From the NCBI RefSeq assembly GCF_002723995.1, contig NZ_BEWP01000007.1, positions 1-64,000 on the forward strand: DNA of 64,000 nucleotides, in the 5' to 3' direction. The position numbers were made by a program, and so were the translations under genes. Shown piece by piece: positions 57,125 through 63,733 of the stretch. The notes beneath the pieces were generated by a model. It was not told where the DNA came from. It searched no databases and was given only the letters and a program-made list of their open reading frames with translations. Source of the DNA: Gluconobacter kondonii. Lineage in GTDB: Bacteria; Pseudomonadota; Alphaproteobacteria; Acetobacterales; Acetobacteraceae. Every line of letters begins with the position of its first letter. The stretch's first letter is position 1.

Positions 57125-57610
57125 TCAGACCCGCGCCAGTTCCTGAAGCGCGTGCAGGATCTCCTGTGGCGCGGGTGGACAGCCTGGAATCGCACGCCGC
57201 ACCGGCGTCAGAGCCTGCAAGCCCCCCAGCGTCGCGTAACTGGCTGGAAACGGCCCTCCGTCGACCGCACAGGCCCCGACCGCAATCAGGCTCCGGCCCG
57301 GCGGCATCGCCCGCCAGACCCGATCCACCATCTCAGCACAGACCCGCGTCACCGCGCCGGTCAGCAACAACCAGTCAGCATCCGCGGGATCGCTCACACA
57401 AACAAAACCTGCCTGCTCCAGAGCGAAAGCACTGCTTTTCAGAGACTCGATCTCCATGAAGCAGCCCTCGCATCCCCCCGTCTCCAGCACATAAAGCCCG
57501 ATGGGGCGCTCACGACGCGGAAGCACTTCGTCAGAGGACGGGCACCAGCGCCGCGCATCCATGAACGCATAAAGCAGGCTCAGAGGCCCCGTTCGTCGCA
57601 ACCCATTCAC
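57125..57610 (-). CDS. Group-4 hydrogenase/NuoB-type small subunit (HyfI-like)
   Basis: A 161-residue iron-sulfur subunit. Four cysteines fit the single proximal [4Fe-4S] site: C47 and C50 (GGCEGC), C114 (VGACAVDGG) and C144 (IPGCPPAP), with VSDPADADWLLLTGAVTR between them, as in HyfI/HycG/EchC. The start is GTG, overlapping the large-subunit stop. It is the last gene of the six-gene cluster. Its partner has lost the Ni site, so it probably passes electrons to or from a quinone-like site, but no electron-input subunit is encoded nearby. Confidence 0.85.
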   Translation of the reverse strand: MNGLRRTGPLSLLYAFMDARRWCPSSDEVLPRRERPIGLYVLETGGCEGCFMEIESLKSSAFALEQAGFVCVSDPADADWLLLTGAVTRVCAEMVDRVWRAMPPGRSLIAVGACAVDGGPFPASYATLGGLQALTPVRRAIPGCPPAPQEILHALQELARV

Positions 57611-59046
57611 AACGCAATCCCCGCCGGAGACAGCCCGATCGACCCCAGAGCCGCAGGTACCCGCTCCACGGGACAGCCTTGCAACATTACCCCCAGAACC
57701 GGCAGAACCGAGACACCCGGATCACGGACATGCAGGTTCTCGATCCGGCCGTTTTTCAACCGCACCCAGTACCACACGTCTCCGCGCGCGCCCTCGGCCA
57801 CGCCAATACCCTCATCCGTGCTGTCCGGCGCGGGTTCGTCATCGTCCAGACCGATGCTTCCCAGAATCCGTTCCATCAGCTTCAGCGAGTCCCTGATTTC
57901 CGCAAGCCGCAGCCCATCACGCGCCCGGGCATCGCCACTGCTCGATCCCGTCGCCCGCAGCGCCTCCAGCCGCATTCCGGCTTCCCGCCGTCGCATATCC
58001 ATGCTGCGACCGCTCGCACGCCCTGTCACGCCCCCAACGGCAAAACGCTCCGCCAGCCGCGCATCCAGAACTGCAAACCCGTTCAGACGGGACGCAAAAA
58101 CCCGATGAAGCTCCTCCAGCGCTGCAAGACGTGGCTGCATCGCCGCGTGAACAGCCTGCGCCAGCGGGACGATTTCCAACCCCTCGCGAAAGCCGCCACA
58201 ACTCACCGTATCCATCAAACGCCGCGACACGCCCTGCTCCGAACAGGCCTGCGCAATGGCCTCGCGCGCATGATCACAATGTGTCGCCAGCAATTCCGCA
58301 TCCACGCCCCGCGCCGTCCGGGCCATGTCGAACAGATGAAGCGACATCCGCTCGATCTCCAGCAGGATCATCCACACATCCCGAACTCCCGGCCCCGGAA
58401 CCTGCCCGCGCGCCTGCGCCACAGCACGCGCGAAAGCCAGAGGATGCGCCACGAAACCACCCGCCGTCATCCGCGCCACGAGGAACATGGCCTCCTCCGG
58501 CGTCTTCCCCAAAAGACGCGACACCACACCCCGATGTGCCCCGCCCGCACAGACATCCACAGCCCGGATCTTCCCTTTCAGAACCTCGAAAGACAGATCC
58601 AGAGGGCCACTCAACCCCGTCTGCTCCGGGCGCAGAAAGCGGCTCCCTCCGAGCGGACGCAGCCCCCCCGAAGCCGGTCCGGGACGGGACGACAATGGCC
58701 ATGTGGACGTCCAGCCACCTTCATCCAGCGCAGGCGTACCGTTCCCACGCGCCTCCATAGCCTCGACGCCATACAGGTCATACGACACGCGCTCGCCCCA
58801 TTCCGCCCCGGCAAACCGCGACGACGGCGCCAAATACCGACGGTCTTCCACAACCGTACTCGCCAGAATCGGGCGATCCCCCTCCAGCAGCAGAACATAG
58901 GCGCGCGCATCATCCGCCCAGCACGAGATCAGCGGCAACGTCGCGCCCGGAACACAGAGCATATCGCTCCACTGTGCGGGATCGAGATGATAATGCGACA
59001 GCGCCACACGCTCGCCACCACGGATGATGCGCCCCATGCTCTTCAT
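57607..59046 (-). CDS. NuoCD/HyfG-like large subunit without Ni-Fe ligands
   Basis: A 479-residue protein: an N-terminal NuoC-like part (res 1-130) fused to a hydrogenase-large-subunit/NuoD-like part. GAHRGVVSRLL matches the NHRGIEK block. The first CxxC of hydrogenases aligns with ARMTAGGFVAH, giving Thr194 and Gly197; the C-terminal DPCxxC aligns with RDPGVSVL, giving Gly444 and Val447. All four Ni ligands are gone, so it is not a hydrogenase. Start at 59046 overlaps the previous stop (ATGA); an upstream ATG at 59073 is possible. Best described as Ehr-type. Confidence 0.82.
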   Translation of the reverse strand: MKSMGRIIRGGERVALSHYHLDPAQWSDMLCVPGATLPLISCWADDARAYVLLLEGDRPILASTVVEDRRYLAPSSRFAGAEWGERVSYDLYGVEAMEARGNGTPALDEGGWTSTWPLSSRPGPASGGLRPLGGSRFLRPEQTGLSGPLDLSFEVLKGKIRAVDVCAGGAHRGVVSRLLGKTPEEAMFLVARMTAGGFVAHPLAFARAVAQARGQVPGPGVRDVWMILLEIERMSLHLFDMARTARGVDAELLATHCDHAREAIAQACSEQGVSRRLMDTVSCGGFREGLEIVPLAQAVHAAMQPRLAALEELHRVFASRLNGFAVLDARLAERFAVGGVTGRASGRSMDMRRREAGMRLEALRATGSSSGDARARDGLRLAEIRDSLKLMERILGSIGLDDDEPAPDSTDEGIGVAEGARGDVWYWVRLKNGRIENLHVRDPGVSVLPVLGVMLQGCPVERVPAALGSIGLSPAGIAL

Positions 59047-60131
59047 GGCCGCCACCCCGTCACCGGATGCCATGCAAGAAACAGCGGGCCACACAAACCG
59101 CCCAGCAGAAGAACAGTCTGTGTCACAGCGACGATACCCCGCTCCCCCCGTCCGAAGGCTGGCAGCAATGTCATAGGCCGTACGGACCACAAAGCAGGCA
59201 GCAGACACAACACCAGCAGAACGAGTTGCCCGGCATCAAGCGACCGCCCGATCCCGACCAGAGCGCAGAACACCGGCCAAGGTGCGGCTCCTGCCCCGAT
59301 GGTCTCCGCTCCCTCACCTTCATGCAGATCCAGAACGGCCAGTCCCAGCGCCGCCAGAAGCAGCAGAACGATCGCCGGACCTTCGCCGGTCGCGGCCGCA
59401 ATAGCGCCCAGCGCCGACAGCATCGGCAAGGCAATCGTCCGCCCCGTCGAGCGCGTCACCACCAGCATGAGGAGTGTTCCAAAACCCGCAATCAGCATCA
59501 GCAGATGGACCAGCGGATAGGCACTCAGGCGGAACATCAGCATCAGCGCCGCAAACCGCAGCCCCGTATCCAGAAGCGCCGCCTCCGGCGCAGGCGCGGG
59601 TGACGGCCCCAGACCCGCCACCATGCATAGTCCGACCGTCAGCAGCACCGCCCCCAGCGATGACTGCTGCATCGGCAGCAGCGACGCGCCCAGAAGCCCC
59701 AGGACCACACCCCCGAGCCGACTGCGCGCAATGTCCCACACAATTGCGGCCTGCCGGGGACCACGCCCTTCGCGCCACGCCAGAAGAACTGCTCCTGCGC
59801 CACACAGGATGGTCACTGCGAACGCCGAATGGACGTTCAGCGCCAGCAGCGCACACCCCGTCACCAGAAACGGCAAAATCCGCCCCGTTCGGTCCCGGGC
59901 CTGCGGGAGAAGCAGTGGAATGGCCGTCACGATGCAGGAACACGCAGCGGCCAGCGCATCCGTGCCCGGCATCAGCCACACGGCCAGCGACGTGATGGCA
60001 AGCCCGGCCACGGCAAAAGTCCGACTGCTCGCAGACTGCCGGTTTTCAGGCGTCAGGAACAGCAGGAACGCTGCCAGAAGCGGCCAGACAGTGACGGCAA
60101 ACAGCGTACCGACAGGTGCGAGCGGATGCAT
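59043..60131 (-). CDS. HyfF-like antiporter-type membrane subunit, reduced
   Basis: A 362-residue highly hydrophobic protein, with about ten to twelve membrane helices, in the hyfF position. It is much shorter than HyfF (about 520 residues) and contains no lysine at all, whereas proton-pumping antiporter-like subunits need membrane-embedded lysines. Starts at MHPLAPVGTLF, overlapping the preceding gene (ATGA). Identity rests on order, hydropathy and size, so subunit naming is tentative. Confidence 0.65.
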   Translation of the reverse strand: MHPLAPVGTLFAVTVWPLLAAFLLFLTPENRQSASSRTFAVAGLAITSLAVWLMPGTDALAAACSCIVTAIPLLLPQARDRTGRILPFLVTGCALLALNVHSAFAVTILCGAGAVLLAWREGRGPRQAAIVWDIARSRLGGVVLGLLGASLLPMQQSSLGAVLLTVGLCMVAGLGPSPAPAPEAALLDTGLRFAALMLMFRLSAYPLVHLLMLIAGFGTLLMLVVTRSTGRTIALPMLSALGAIAAATGEGPAIVLLLLAALGLAVLDLHEGEGAETIGAGAAPWPVFCALVGIGRSLDAGQLVLLVLCLLPALWSVRPMTLLPAFGRGERGIVAVTQTVLLLGGLCGPLFLAWHPVTGWRP

Positions 60132-60652
60132 CAGACGTCCTCCACCCGTCGCCATGCCAGACGGGGCAGCAGCGTGACGCCAAGGGCCGCCAGAACGCCC
60201 CACAGGCTCAGAGCAGCGGCAAAAAGCGGCCATGAATTCAGAACGCACGCCACAACAACCAGCCCATCAGCCGCACGGATCAACCCGGTAAACTGAACCA
60301 GCGGCGTTCCCCAAGCAGCACCACATAACCCGGCCAGAACCGCTCCCGCGCCCAGAACCGGTGCAAGCCCCAGACCAGCGCCTGACAGACCGAGCGCCAG
60401 CAACAAAACAAGCGTGCCCACAACCGGCAAAACAGCCGCCTTGTCCGGCGCTTCCGGTGCAAACCGCCGCAGCCAGATCCATGCCAGAACGTTCAGCCCG
60501 ATCAGCGCCACGGACGTCAGCAGCGCCATCAACCCCGAACAAACCGTCGCCCCGGCAAAAGCGCAGACCGCCCCATAAAGCGGCAACCCCCGACCGTCTT
60601 TTCCCAACCCTGCAAGGGCCAGCAGCAAAAGCAGTCCGAACCCTACAATCAT
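60131..60652 (-). CDS. HyfE-like membrane subunit
   Basis: A 173-residue protein with five or so helices (MIVGFGLLLLLALAGLG at the start, LPRLAWRRVEDV at the end), in the position and with the helix count of HyfE, the small NuoK-related subunit. Charged membrane residues typical of NuoK are not obvious. Both ends overlap neighbours by 1-4 nt, implying coupled translation. Confidence 0.65.
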   Translation of the reverse strand: MIVGFGLLLLLALAGLGKDGRGLPLYGAVCAFAGATVCSGLMALLTSVALIGLNVLAWIWLRRFAPEAPDKAAVLPVVGTLVLLLALGLSGAGLGLAPVLGAGAVLAGLCGAAWGTPLVQFTGLIRAADGLVVVACVLNSWPLFAAALSLWGVLAALGVTLLPRLAWRRVEDV

Positions 60653-61518
60653 GTGCCAAACCTCCCCGCCAGAGCCAGAAGGAGCGCCACCCCCGCAAAC
60701 AGCGCCGTCAAACGTGCACTCCGCTCCTGCGCCATCAGTCTCAGTCCGACCGCCACGGCCACAGCCAGCGTCAACCGTGCGGCAAGTGCCACCAGTCCGA
60801 GCCACCAGCCCTGAACGCCTCCCTGCGCAAGCCCCACACTCACCGGCCATGCCAGATCAGCCAATAACAGCAGCCAGCCACAGTTCAGCACATCCGCAAT
60901 ACTGCGCGCCGCCTCACGCTCCTGCCGGTCCCGCACCCCGGACAACATACCCGTCACATCCTCGGAACGAAGCGGCGGACATGCAATTCCCAAAGCCAGC
61001 GCACAGGCGGCTAGCGCTCCCTCCAGACCCGGCTCAGGCTCGATATGCAACATCGCACACAAGCCCCCAAGGCCATCTGTCCCCGGAGCGGACAGCGCGA
61101 TCAGTGCTTCCGTCAGGCATAGCAGCAGAACCGCCGGAACCAGACGCGATGCCTCTCCCGACAAAACGCCCGGCCCCAGAAATCCACGCCCCATCAACAG
61201 CATGAGCCCCATGACGAGCGGATCCGCCAGCGAAGACAGCACCGATCCCGTTGTCACCACAGGCAGGCACACCAGCGCCAGCAGCCCCATGGTCAACGCA
61301 AGCGCCGGACGCCCTGAAAGCGGTGTCTGGAACAAGTTTTTCCAGAAACGACCCGCACCCAAAAGACGAAACCGCACCGCACCACCCGCGCGGCCAGCCA
61401 GCCAGAACGGCAGACCGTCCAGACACCACCCCAGCACAGGCGCCAGAACGAGCAGCAGCCCCAGTTGGAACAGCGCTTCCAGCACAGACAACGCAATCAG
61501 CCCCGCGTCATGCGCCAT
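60649..61518 (-). CDS. HyfC/NuoH-like membrane subunit
   Basis: A 289-residue membrane protein resembling the NuoH/HycD/HyfC family that anchors the electron-transfer arm: LLVLAPVLGWCLDGLPFWLAGRAG near the N-terminus, a cytosolic loop FWKNLFQTPLSG, then IEPEPGLEGALAACALALG, a counterpart of the acidic quinone-cavity segment. About eight hydrophobic segments. It overlaps both neighbours by 1-4 nt. Confidence 0.7.
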   Translation of the reverse strand: MAHDAGLIALSVLEALFQLGLLLVLAPVLGWCLDGLPFWLAGRAGGAVRFRLLGAGRFWKNLFQTPLSGRPALALTMGLLALVCLPVVTTGSVLSSLADPLVMGLMLLMGRGFLGPGVLSGEASRLVPAVLLLCLTEALIALSAPGTDGLGGLCAMLHIEPEPGLEGALAACALALGIACPPLRSEDVTGMLSGVRDRQEREAARSIADVLNCGWLLLLADLAWPVSVGLAQGGVQGWWLGLVALAARLTLAVAVAVGLRLMAQERSARLTALFAGVALLLALAGRFGT

Positions 61519-62759
61519 TACGTCATCACTCCCAGCACCGCGAGAACGAGGCCGAGAAGAACAAGCCAGAGCCCCACGGCCCCCTGACGCAGATCGGGCA
61601 AAACGGGCGCTTTCATCCCTTTCAGCGCCCTGAAACGAACTCGCCCTGACACGACAAAACGACGCAGGCTCCAGCCCAGAGACGGCGCCTCTTCAAACAG
61701 GACATCGCCTGATGCCAGCAATGTCATCAATGCCGGAGCCAGCGTGGAAGCCGCCTGAACGATCCCCCCCATAATGCGCCAGGGACGCACGAGAACAATC
61801 CAGATCAAGGCTCCAACCATCACGAAGGCCATCAACCGGAAATGGGAGCCATCGCCTGCACCAATACTCCAGACGGGCCAGACCCATTCCCCTCCCACAC
61901 CATGCAGCGCAGGGCTTGTCAGCCCGAACACCAGCGCGGGCAAAAGCAGACTCCCAGCACCCACCAGCAATACGGAAACACCGGATATAGCAGCCTGTCC
62001 TCCAGACATCTGCCGCCCAACAACAAGCAGATCGGACAGCGCCAGAACGCCCAGAAGCAACGCCACAATCACGCCGAGGACGCTCCAGCCCTCGACACCC
62101 GCCGCCATGCCCAACGCCGCATGAATCCCAAGCCACAGAACGACCAGTCCGGGCAAAGGCGGAAACGGCAGACGCAATACGGCCAGCGCTGGAAACCGAA
62201 GCCCCAGTGATACCGTCAAAACCAGAGTTGCGAGATCAAGAAACGCAGCTTCCAGTGCAATCCGGGCACAGACCGCAAGCCCTTCGTCCTGCGCGGCCAC
62301 CACCAGAACCATCAACAGAACGGGGCGCAAAAGCCCCAGATTTCCCGGCCGACGCGCTCCCAGAACGGACCATCCGATCAGCCCGAGCACACCCACACCC
62401 AGACCAGCAACCAGTTCGGCCGATACAGCTTCCGGAGCATGCCACACCAGCGACACGCCCAGAATGCTCATAACGGCGGAGCAGCCCCCGTCTCTGCGAC
62501 GCACGAGCGCAGACCAGAACAGAACAGGCAGCAGCCCCAGCAAAACAGGTGTCTGGGCGGGAAACAGAACGCTCAGCAGCAGAACCGGAACGCTCCACAC
62601 CGCCGGACAGGCATCCCGCTCCTGCGCCGCAATCACGCCCAGCGACACAGCCAGAACGGCAGGCGAAAGCGCCAATACCGCAGCCAAAGCCGCCAGACAC
62701 ACGACTACAGCCTGCCCGAACCGCCCCGGCTGGATCACCCGCACACAGGCAGGCACCAC
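61518..62759 (-). CDS. HyfB-like antiporter-type membrane subunit, reduced
   Basis: A 413-residue, extremely hydrophobic protein in the hyfB position, against about 670 residues for HyfB. RLPFPPLPGLVVLWLG resembles the conserved LPPxPGFV block of NuoN/HyfB proteins. Only two lysines occur, both in one polar segment (ALKGMKAPVLP), so the usual channel lysines are absent. The start is GTG 62759, but the frame stays open to 62835 and encodes a plausible continuation of the first helix; a non-canonical upstream start is possible. First gene of the cluster. Confidence 0.65.
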   Translation of the reverse strand: MVPACVRVIQPGRFGQAVVVCLAALAAVLALSPAVLAVSLGVIAAQERDACPAVWSVPVLLLSVLFPAQTPVLLGLLPVLFWSALVRRRDGGCSAVMSILGVSLVWHAPEAVSAELVAGLGVGVLGLIGWSVLGARRPGNLGLLRPVLLMVLVVAAQDEGLAVCARIALEAAFLDLATLVLTVSLGLRFPALAVLRLPFPPLPGLVVLWLGIHAALGMAAGVEGWSVLGVIVALLLGVLALSDLLVVGRQMSGGQAAISGVSVLLVGAGSLLLPALVFGLTSPALHGVGGEWVWPVWSIGAGDGSHFRLMAFVMVGALIWIVLVRPWRIMGGIVQAASTLAPALMTLLASGDVLFEEAPSLGWSLRRFVVSGRVRFRALKGMKAPVLPDLRQGAVGLWLVLLGLVLAVLGVMT

Positions 62760-62866
62760 CAGAACCGCAAGGCAGAGGGAAACCGGATCAGTATGGAACA
62801 GGGACGTGAAAATATGCAGGGCGCGGTCCGCAGGTTAGGGAGAACGGACCGCAACCATCACGACCG

Positions 62867-63712
62867 TCAGATCATGGCGAGAGATAGCTTGCGTTTCGGA
62901 GAAGGGAAAGCACTGTCAAGCGTTTTGAGATCCGCATCCGTCAGGCTGATCTCCAGACTGGCAAGATTTCCCGCCACATGCTTCTCAGACGCGGCCTTCG
63001 GAATGGCCAGAACATTTGGTCGACGCAACACCCAGGCCAGAGCAATCTGGGCCGGATCGGCAGGCCCAAGCGACGTCTCATGCCGTGACGCCAGCTCTTT
63101 CAGAGCCGGATGCTCCAGAAGCTCCCCGCCCTGCCCGAGCGGCGAATAGGCCATCGTCACCGTTCCGGATTTCAGATCATGATCCAGAAGATCGAACTCT
63201 GTTCCCCGGTGCTCCAGATTATATAGAATCTGATTGACCAGACAGTTTTCGGACAGGCTTTCGATCTCTTCCATGTCCTCGACATCGAAGTTCGACACAC
63301 CCCAGCCCCGGATCAGACCTTCGTCCTTCAGATCCTCAAAAGCCTGAACCGTTTCCTCAAGTGGCGTCCCCCCGTGCCAGTGCAGCAGATACAGATCCAA
63401 CCACTCTGTCTCCAGATGCTCCAGAGACCGCTGACAGGCCTTATAAACCCCGTCATAAGACGCATTTGACGGCACGATCTTGCTCACGAGATAAACATCC
63501 TCGCGCACATCCGAAATTGCTTCCCCCACCAGATCTTCCGAGCGCCCGTCTCCATACATCTCAGCCGTATCAATAACCCGCAGACCGGCCTCCAGCCCCT
63601 TGCGCAGGCTCTTGATCTCACTGCTGCGCCGCGAAGCACTGTCGCCGATATTCCAGGTTCCCATCCCCAGTGCCGGAACCGTGACACCATTCCTGAGCGT
63701 GACTGTTTTCAT
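62867..63712 (-). CDS. Aldo/keto reductase
   Basis: A 281-residue NADPH-dependent reductase. Catalytic tetrad visible as DTAEMYGDG (Asp, Tyr), VSKIVPS (Lys) and LYLLHWHG (His); a PKAASEKHVAGN segment near the C-terminus binds the cofactor phosphate. Such enzymes reduce sugars, ketones or aldehydes and are abundant in Gluconobacter. A near-perfect AGGAGGTGG precedes the ATG at 63712. Substrate unknown. Confidence 0.92.
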   Translation of the reverse strand: MKTVTLRNGVTVPALGMGTWNIGDSASRRSSEIKSLRKGLEAGLRVIDTAEMYGDGRSEDLVGEAISDVREDVYLVSKIVPSNASYDGVYKACQRSLEHLETEWLDLYLLHWHGGTPLEETVQAFEDLKDEGLIRGWGVSNFDVEDMEEIESLSENCLVNQILYNLEHRGTEFDLLDHDLKSGTVTMAYSPLGQGGELLEHPALKELASRHETSLGPADPAQIALAWVLRRPNVLAIPKAASEKHVAGNLASLEISLTDADLKTLDSAFPSPKRKLSLAMI

Positions 63713-63733
63713 GACCACCTCCTGTCCCTGCCC

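Follow-up and report, generated by a model that had tools for sequence, protein, structure and literature searches.

We asked what keeps a six-gene cluster resembling the hyf operon (hydrogenase 4) of Escherichia coli in the genome of Gluconobacter kondonii. The cluster lies on the minus strand at 57125-62759 of the window, that is, of the whole stretch of 64,000 nucleotides that was analysed (positions 1 to 64,000 of contig NZ_BEWP01000007.1, assembly GCF_002723995.1), and consists of six overlapping open reading frames (ORFs) in the order B-C-E-F-G-I. An earlier reading of this DNA, made from the letters alone (the sequence-only reading), had described a reduced membrane redox complex that cannot be a hydrogenase and that is under selection. 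What it missed is the loss, in the membrane arm, of most residues of the proton path. We put at roughly 60% the probability that the cluster encodes a still-functional six-subunit descendant of a complex of the energy-converting-hydrogenase-related (Ehr) type whose proton-translocating chemistry has been lost. From the comparison of sequences we conclude that the product would be a non-pumping, non-hydrogenase, membrane-anchored iron-sulphur (Fe-S) complex under selection.

Residues lost and residues kept

Related loci were collected with a HyfG query, which matches 273 of 299 Acetobacteraceae genomes, a count that may include NuoD of complex I. A first set of 40 regions came chiefly from the highest-ranking HyfG matches, and a second set of 20 included 10 from outside the family; with loci chosen from the head of the list, the share of any class among them is no census. 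Short or duplicate stretches of genomes already included (L001-L021 and L047-L056; L numbers denote loci and G numbers genomes) were left out of the comparison. Eight Acetobacteraceae loci carry what we call the canonical motifs, namely K-x-G-P-x-H-x-W in HyfB and HyfF and E-x-R-x-P-x-D in HyfC. The ten loci from other Alphaproteobacteria (L106-L115) have the HyfC motif in 10/10 and both antiporter motifs in 9/10 cases, L108 ending after HyfB. The loci that we call stripped, the window among them, have no canonical motif, except for a single pattern match in L060 that is an unrelated ORF at 419-679. Among L082-L096 and L116-L125 the stripped status was judged by motif, partly by eye, and L124 shows an intermediate state in which PLH-W is kept and the Lys is replaced.

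To quantify the difference, we scored 51 stripped loci (the window, L022-L046 and L057-L081; 50 for HyfB and 44 for HyfI) against 6 canonical loci, noting that 26 of the 51 belong to the genus Gluconobacter and hence are not independent. The scored residues are those that are invariant in the 6 canonical loci, and alignment gaps were counted as loss. For B, C and E, the extent of the stripped sequences was delimited with profiles into which some canonical rows had already entered. In HyfB, residues E161, K241, H248, H255 and K272 are kept in 0/50 stripped loci, and in HyfF the same is true (0/51) for E148, K172, K236, H243, E324, H347, H351, K355 and E410. The HyfC residues E146, E211, E300 and K292 are kept nowhere in the 51 loci, E197 and E287 in one each, E222 in four and E217 in nine. 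For HyfE, we see K170, E228 and E261 in none of the 51 and E279 in one.

The HyfG-HyfI head gives a different count. All four cysteines of the HyfI [4Fe-4S] site are kept in 44/44 copies in the table, in 8/8 copies relocated away from the cluster and in 14/15 further stripped loci, in total in 66 of 67 stripped copies. The HyfG counterparts of HycE His284 (H237) and Glu437 (E383) are present in 51/51 stripped loci, that of Arg395 (R343) in 50/51 and that of the canopy Arg478 (R421) in 41/51, while the counterpart of the beta1-beta2-loop Glu193 is found in 6/6 canonical and 0/51 stripped loci. The roles of the HycE residues are taken from PMC9474812 (used here, like the other papers cited, from part of its text), and the mapping of HycE to HyfG is our own, from an alignment with a 12-residue offset. 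When charged or cysteine columns with at least 90% conservation are counted, there is 1 in HyfB, 2 in HyfC, 1 in HyfE, 1 in HyfF, 30 in HyfG and 6 in HyfI.

Homology, ancestry and selection

Next, we asked whether the six proteins are what the gene order suggests. Identification by hidden Markov models, proposed in the sequence-only reading, worked directly for two of them: Pfam recognised HyfI as PF01058 (85.5 bits) and HyfG as PF00346 (51.8 bits). The membrane proteins HyfB, C, E and F had no Pfam match at 1e-3 and no NCBIfam match at 0.1; a lax Pfam scan (E up to 10) gave two weak, irrelevant matches, and a PHROG search added nothing, so that direct identification from these collections was abandoned. 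They could be matched by way of intermediate genera. Aligned with hhalign to its canonical counterpart, the profile of the stripped clade reached a probability of 95% (E = 1.9e-8) for B, 99% (2.9e-20) for C, 100% (1.4e-81) for G and 100% (5.5e-49) for I; the values are modest for E (66%, 5.6e-5) and F (39%, 3.2e-4). In the full 6 x 6 comparison the best of the 30 off-diagonal pairs had a probability of 3%. Profiles of B, E and F built from Gluconobacter only did not match the canonical subunits, and the homology of the membrane subunits is therefore visible only via the intermediate genera.

Predicted structures were compared as well. The AlphaFold2 model of HyfF (predicted local distance difference test, pLDDT, 84.8; predicted template modelling score 0.88) gave 486 matches in the PDB at E up to 10, the best 50 of which are all complex I, NDH-1, Mrp or MBS chains; 12 matches lie at E up to 0.001, and 7p63_N (TMq 0.76, E 1.1e-3) may serve as an example. 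The HyfB model has a lower pLDDT (75.7), and Foldseek found no significant match for it, the top hit being the antiporter subunit of E. coli formate hydrogenlyase (FHL), 7z0s_C, at E 0.44. By profile, the solved chain closest to HyfG is E. coli HycE (7z0s_E, 1.8e-40) and the one closest to HyfI is HycG (7z0s_G, 1.1e-33).

The same six genes in the same order are found within Acetobacteraceae and in other Alphaproteobacteria. Canonical and stripped clusters thus share their gene set, and both are without the Ni-Fe cysteine patterns; unlike the stripped ones, the canonical clusters in 8 Acetobacteraceae and 10 other Alphaproteobacteria loci keep the proton-path motifs. Those from outside the family (L106-L115) lack the Ni-Fe cysteine patterns wherever HyfG was found (9/10 loci). 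Because canonical clusters inside and outside the family lack these cysteines and keep the proton-path motifs, the ancestral state was likely a six-gene, Ehr-like complex that looked competent to pump. In a HyfG tree of 69 rows, obtained by a quick search, the stripped rows (51 and L060) form one group with a Shimodaira-Hasegawa-like approximate likelihood ratio support (SH-aLRT) of 100, nested among canonical Acetobacteraceae. Eleven rows are from Gluconobacter, one of them the window. The tree excludes L108, which stops at a contig end, and L125, in whose stretch no HyfG was found; L060 was scored as mixed owing to its unrelated ORF. Evolution is fast in the stripped rows, and with long branches in several of them (L087, L081, L095, L085), long-branch effects are possible.

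Outside the family, a profile of stripped HyfC matched only 12 of the 113 genomes of the class, with at best 72 bits versus 322 for the window, and the 10 of these 12 that were fetched are all canonical. Within this sample, the stripped class appears solely in Acetobacteraceae. As a separate observation, genome G124 and two congeners gave no match to this profile. We see about even odds for the broader history that these data suggest: a complete machine of the complex I superfamily would have been stripped once of its catalytic and proton-conducting residues, in an ancestor of the acetic acid bacteria and some of their Acetobacteraceae kin. It would then have been retained throughout the radiation, serving as a membrane-anchored Fe-S device in a new role other than energy conversion, such as electron relay or redox sensing.

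Selection was measured as the ratio of nonsynonymous to synonymous substitution rates (dN/dS, pairwise Nei-Gojobori, saturated cells excluded). Within Gluconobacter, using 11 of 23 species loci, dN/dS is 0.02-0.31 over all six genes; dS was saturated in every one of the six in L042, and in L043 in HyfI. HyfE has the lowest value of the six genes in 9 of the 10 Gluconobacter comparisons that yielded values. Six pairs from other stripped genera gave 0.07-0.49, with dS saturated for HyfF in one pair. A canonical pair, L089-L094, gave 0.38-0.62 and carries no weight in our conclusions. HyfG is free of internal stops in 26/26 Gluconobacter genomes at 52-97% identity. Genes of full length are found among the 51 loci in 49 cases for B, 51 each for C, E, F and G and 44 for I, all six together in 42; the two gaps in B are contig ends, where L030 and L032 lose HyfB in whole or in part. 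A few alignments of E, F and G show in-frame stops; these alignments start upstream of the starts used here, and the same genes are uninterrupted ORFs. Because dN/dS is well below 1 and HyfG has no stops, the gene order and the frames are, as judged from these sequences, under purifying selection and not decaying freely. This agrees with the sequence-only reading, which had named stop codons or a dN/dS near 1 as signs of decay. The gene order shared within and beyond the family and the low dN/dS in Gluconobacter indicate that the cluster is no chance arrangement.

In several genera HyfI has moved away from the cluster, and in seven of the 51 loci it is absent beside it. It was found elsewhere in the genome in 8/8 genomes that lack it at the cluster and in 4/4 congeners (120-203 bits), together with a second, weaker match of about 82 bits that we interpret as NuoB. 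The relocated copies with four cysteines mentioned above are those at L126-L133 (genomes G047, G214, G062, G172, G109, G033, G071 and G026). hyfG and hyfI are some 4 kb apart in L062 and L064.

Hydrogenase, complex I and the neighbourhood

Could the cluster still be a hydrogenase? In HyfG the positions of the Ni-Fe cysteines are replaced: RVCGIC of HycE aligns to a sequence of the RMTAGG type, and the protein of the window ends in LSPAGIAL, where HycE, as we take it, has DPCYSC. The patterns R.CG.C and DPC..C are absent from all 18 HyfG ORFs scanned, canonical and stripped; in the canonical L089 and L094 the absence was seen by eye. HypD, needed for Ni-Fe maturation, was found in 0/26 Gluconobacter genomes (control: found in 4/14). 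With no Ni-Fe cysteines left in HyfG and no HypD in any of the 26 genomes, the sequences indicate that the cluster cannot be a hydrogenase, as the sequence-only reading had claimed.

Its comparison with Ehr complexes also holds, as far as ancestry is concerned. These are defined as relatives of group 4 hydrogenases without Ni-Fe ligands and are suspected to translocate charge (PMC6349859). The cluster is likewise a gene set of the group 4 hydrogenase type without these ligands; unlike Ehr complexes, it appears to have lost most transport residues of the antiporter subunits, the main HyfB and HyfF residues standing at 0/50-51. Among solved structures, E. coli HycE and HycG are the nearest to HyfG and HyfI, and the gene order, going by the statement of the hyf operon in the sequence-only reading, is that of hyf; the small subunit with four Cys for a proximal [4Fe-4S] cluster is that of group 4 [NiFe] hydrogenases. 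On the other hand, it differs from Hyc and Hyf in having no Ni-Fe cysteines and no A, D, H and J genes in the cluster and in its loss of proton-path residues, in a genus where 26 genomes are without HypD. As the cluster contains no further gene, it does lack A, D, H and J. That this lack is a reduction special to the organism, or to Gluconobacter, did not stand and was rejected, because the same six-gene form exists in other Alphaproteobacteria.

HyfG, HyfI, HyfC and the antiporter-type folds are homologous to complex I. The proposal that the organism has no complex I stood for its own genome: we found no match to PF01512 (NuoF), the single PF00346 match is this HyfG, and there is no match to PF00361 (control: detected in 13/14), a null that excludes canonical antiporter subunits such as those of Mrp only, as the stripped subunits themselves escape this model. 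For the genus it has to be restricted. Twenty-five of 26 Gluconobacter genomes have no complex I, and one has a true 49-kDa gene of complex I (G022:C189:54406-55218, 376.7 bits) beside the stripped cluster. Further differences are the lack of a NuoI-like protein above the cut-off in the own genome, where the best match to the NuoI model (NuoI/HyfH-like) has 20.8 bits and runs across a stop, and the quinone site: in an alignment to 2fug_4, the Nqo4 quinone-site residues, in our presumed assignment, are not kept in HyfG. No ferredoxin-like HyfA or HyfH was found within the cluster, where no HyfA-specific model was applied. A His of the beta1-beta2 loop is named in the context of the 49-kDa subunit in PMC9474812.

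The layout of the genes fits the description of six overlapping minus-strand genes, with every start overlapping the stop of the preceding gene by 1-4 nt. The junctions read TAATG (B/C), ATGA (C/E), TGATG (E/F), ATGA (F/G) and GTGA (G/I). For E, F and G the longest ORFs begin further upstream, and we take the likely true starts from the junctions (60652, 60131 and 59046); the lengths in the table below are counted from these. Canonical HyfB was matched over 661-668 aa in 4/6 canonical loci, considerably longer than the protein of the window. A promoter scan gave 0 promoter-like sites, and terminators were at the level of shuffled sequence.

Table 1. Genes of the cluster and the gene upstream of it, in window coordinates
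Feature	Position	Strand	Length	Identified by	Remarks
HyfB-like antiporter-type membrane subunit	61518..62759	-	413 aa	iterative HMM	shortened; start codon uncertain
HyfC/NuoH-like membrane anchor subunit	60649..61518	-	289 aa	hhalign	1-nt overlap with hyfB stop
HyfE-like small membrane subunit	60131..60652	-	173 aa	hhalign	ATG overlaps hyfC stop
HyfF-like antiporter-type membrane subunit	59043..60131	-	362 aa	predicted structure and hhalign	
HyfG/NuoCD-like large subunit without Ni-Fe cysteines	57607..59046	-	479 aa	PF00346	
HyfI/NuoB-like small subunit	57125..57610	-	161 aa	PF01058	GTG start; Cys C47, C50, C114, C144
Aldo/keto reductase	62867..63718	-		PF00248	neighbour, not counted as part; 107 bp upstream of hyfB

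Next to the cluster, we recognised no gene for a redox partner. The aldo/keto reductase was considered as an electron-donor partner; it lies directly upstream of hyfB in many genera (L065-L086), and none was found in the regions fetched for L057-L064, a group with small genomes. Among 34 representative loci it was counted in 17, and flanking genes that we name, from their sequence, HolC-like, PepA-like and Psd/PssA-like in 17-19. Because these other genes keep their place about as often, the reductase is poor evidence for a partner, and the linkage looks like background synteny.

Possible roles of the complex

How, then, might such a complex work? The six proteins would assemble into one complex in which HyfB, C, E and F serve as membrane anchor and scaffold only, and the HyfG-HyfI head would neither produce H2 nor drive pumping. 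Its Fe-S cluster may act as a one-electron relay or as a redox sensor at the membrane, a role that we infer from the conserved cluster ligands and the HyfG core. Within this picture, our tentative guess, somewhat short of an even chance, is that the complex relays electrons without pumping, taking them from a soluble donor and passing them to a partner in the membrane. The complex is not expected to pump, because the membrane arm has lost most proton-path residues. Mutants in related machines make this loss of pumping likely: in Nqo13, K235M and E377Q, and in Nqo12, K385I, block proton conduction (PMC11496545), and HycD mutants of E138 or of E199/201/203 reduce H2 production by 98-99% (PMC9474812).

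Several observations speak against this picture. In E. coli FHL, the HycC mutants E135A, H222A, K239A, T292A, H328A and K336A show no significant drop in H2 (PMC9474812), and since such mutants still make H2, the loss of antiporter residues alone is no proof that the enzyme function is lost. Some acidic columns survive, HyfC D104 in 41/51 and E138 in 27/51 loci, HyfF D82 in 38/51 and E252 in 30/51, and HyfB D100 in 45/50, so that a different proton route is conceivable. Outside the genus the membrane subunits are about 15-40% identical to those of the window, the profile match of HyfF is weak (39%), and single columns may be misplaced. An electron route to HyfI is missing in the own genome, there being no NuoI/HyfH-like protein above the cut-off. 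Finally, L091 (G124) has a HyfI with three of four cysteines replaced, the sole such case among the stripped HyfI examined, hyfC of L121 (G268) is broken, with one part continuous with hyfB and the rest in another frame, possibly an assembly error, and the relocated HyfI of G150 carries an in-frame TAG. Damage to the complex, or its loss, is thus possible and, judging from the loci examined, rare.

Potentially, the complex could be a non-redox scaffold that is kept for structural reasons only, with a Fe-S cluster that is itself structural; it might, for instance, hold in place or stabilise a different enzyme of the membrane. The membrane subunits, with hardly any conserved ionizable residue, and a HyfG without any known catalytic site would suit such a scaffold, and there is a parallel in the same family: a deranged bc1 complex and a COX1-like protein of Acetobacteraceae were kept after the loss of cofactor ligands, and a structural role has been proposed for them (PMC10715153, which in its available part makes no mention of the cluster in the window). 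That case concerns retained respiratory genes of another complex, however; here it is the Fe-S ligands that are kept and the proton path that is lost. A scaffold has no known client enzyme, and a purely structural role does not account for the fact that the His/Glu/Arg set of HyfG, like the four Fe-S cysteines, is among the best-kept features. We hold this explanation to be rather unlikely.

We give very little credence to a complex that still pumps in the Ehr manner through other, lineage-specific residues. The antiporter fold of HyfF is kept in the predicted structure and a few acidic columns remain, but at 90% conservation no membrane subunit has more than one or two charged columns, and in the membrane-subunit alignments A1, A3 and A4 it is proline, glycine or tryptophan that occupies the invariant columns. 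It is likewise highly improbable that the genes are a relic, being slowly lost and merely uninterrupted so far. The membrane subunits do evolve fast (in many of the less closely related Gluconobacter species HyfB identity is 32-49%), the damage in L091, L121 and G150 exists, and 26/299 genomes of the family, some of them incomplete assemblies, have no HyfG-like match. This is already disfavoured by dN/dS values that stay within 0.02-0.49 wherever dS is unsaturated among the stripped comparisons, by the stop-free HyfG of Gluconobacter, by a stripped state that spans many genera with the genes kept, and by a HyfI that was retained after leaving the cluster.

What remains best supported is the still-functional descendant of an Ehr-like complex without proton-translocating chemistry, and it probably does a job not yet described. 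A six-gene set is also known as rv0082-rv0087 of Mycobacterium tuberculosis, annotated as oxidoreductases and hycD/P/Q/E and regarded as a putative [NiFe]-hydrogenase complex (PMC6901956); we liken it to the cluster by annotation and not by sequence. Among the papers listed by searches of the open-access full-text literature, none describes this cluster from acetic acid bacteria.

The usual assumption is that complex-I-like machines owe their persistence to the conversion of redox energy into an ion gradient. Here, a six-subunit member without most of the residues for such a gradient is nevertheless under selection, as far as the sequences tell, in an industrially used and strictly aerobic genus. 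It may be seen as a natural test of what the complex-I-like architecture does apart from pumping. The canonical clusters within the same family reveal what was lost, and as the genes are present in G. oxydans, the effect of their removal is directly testable.

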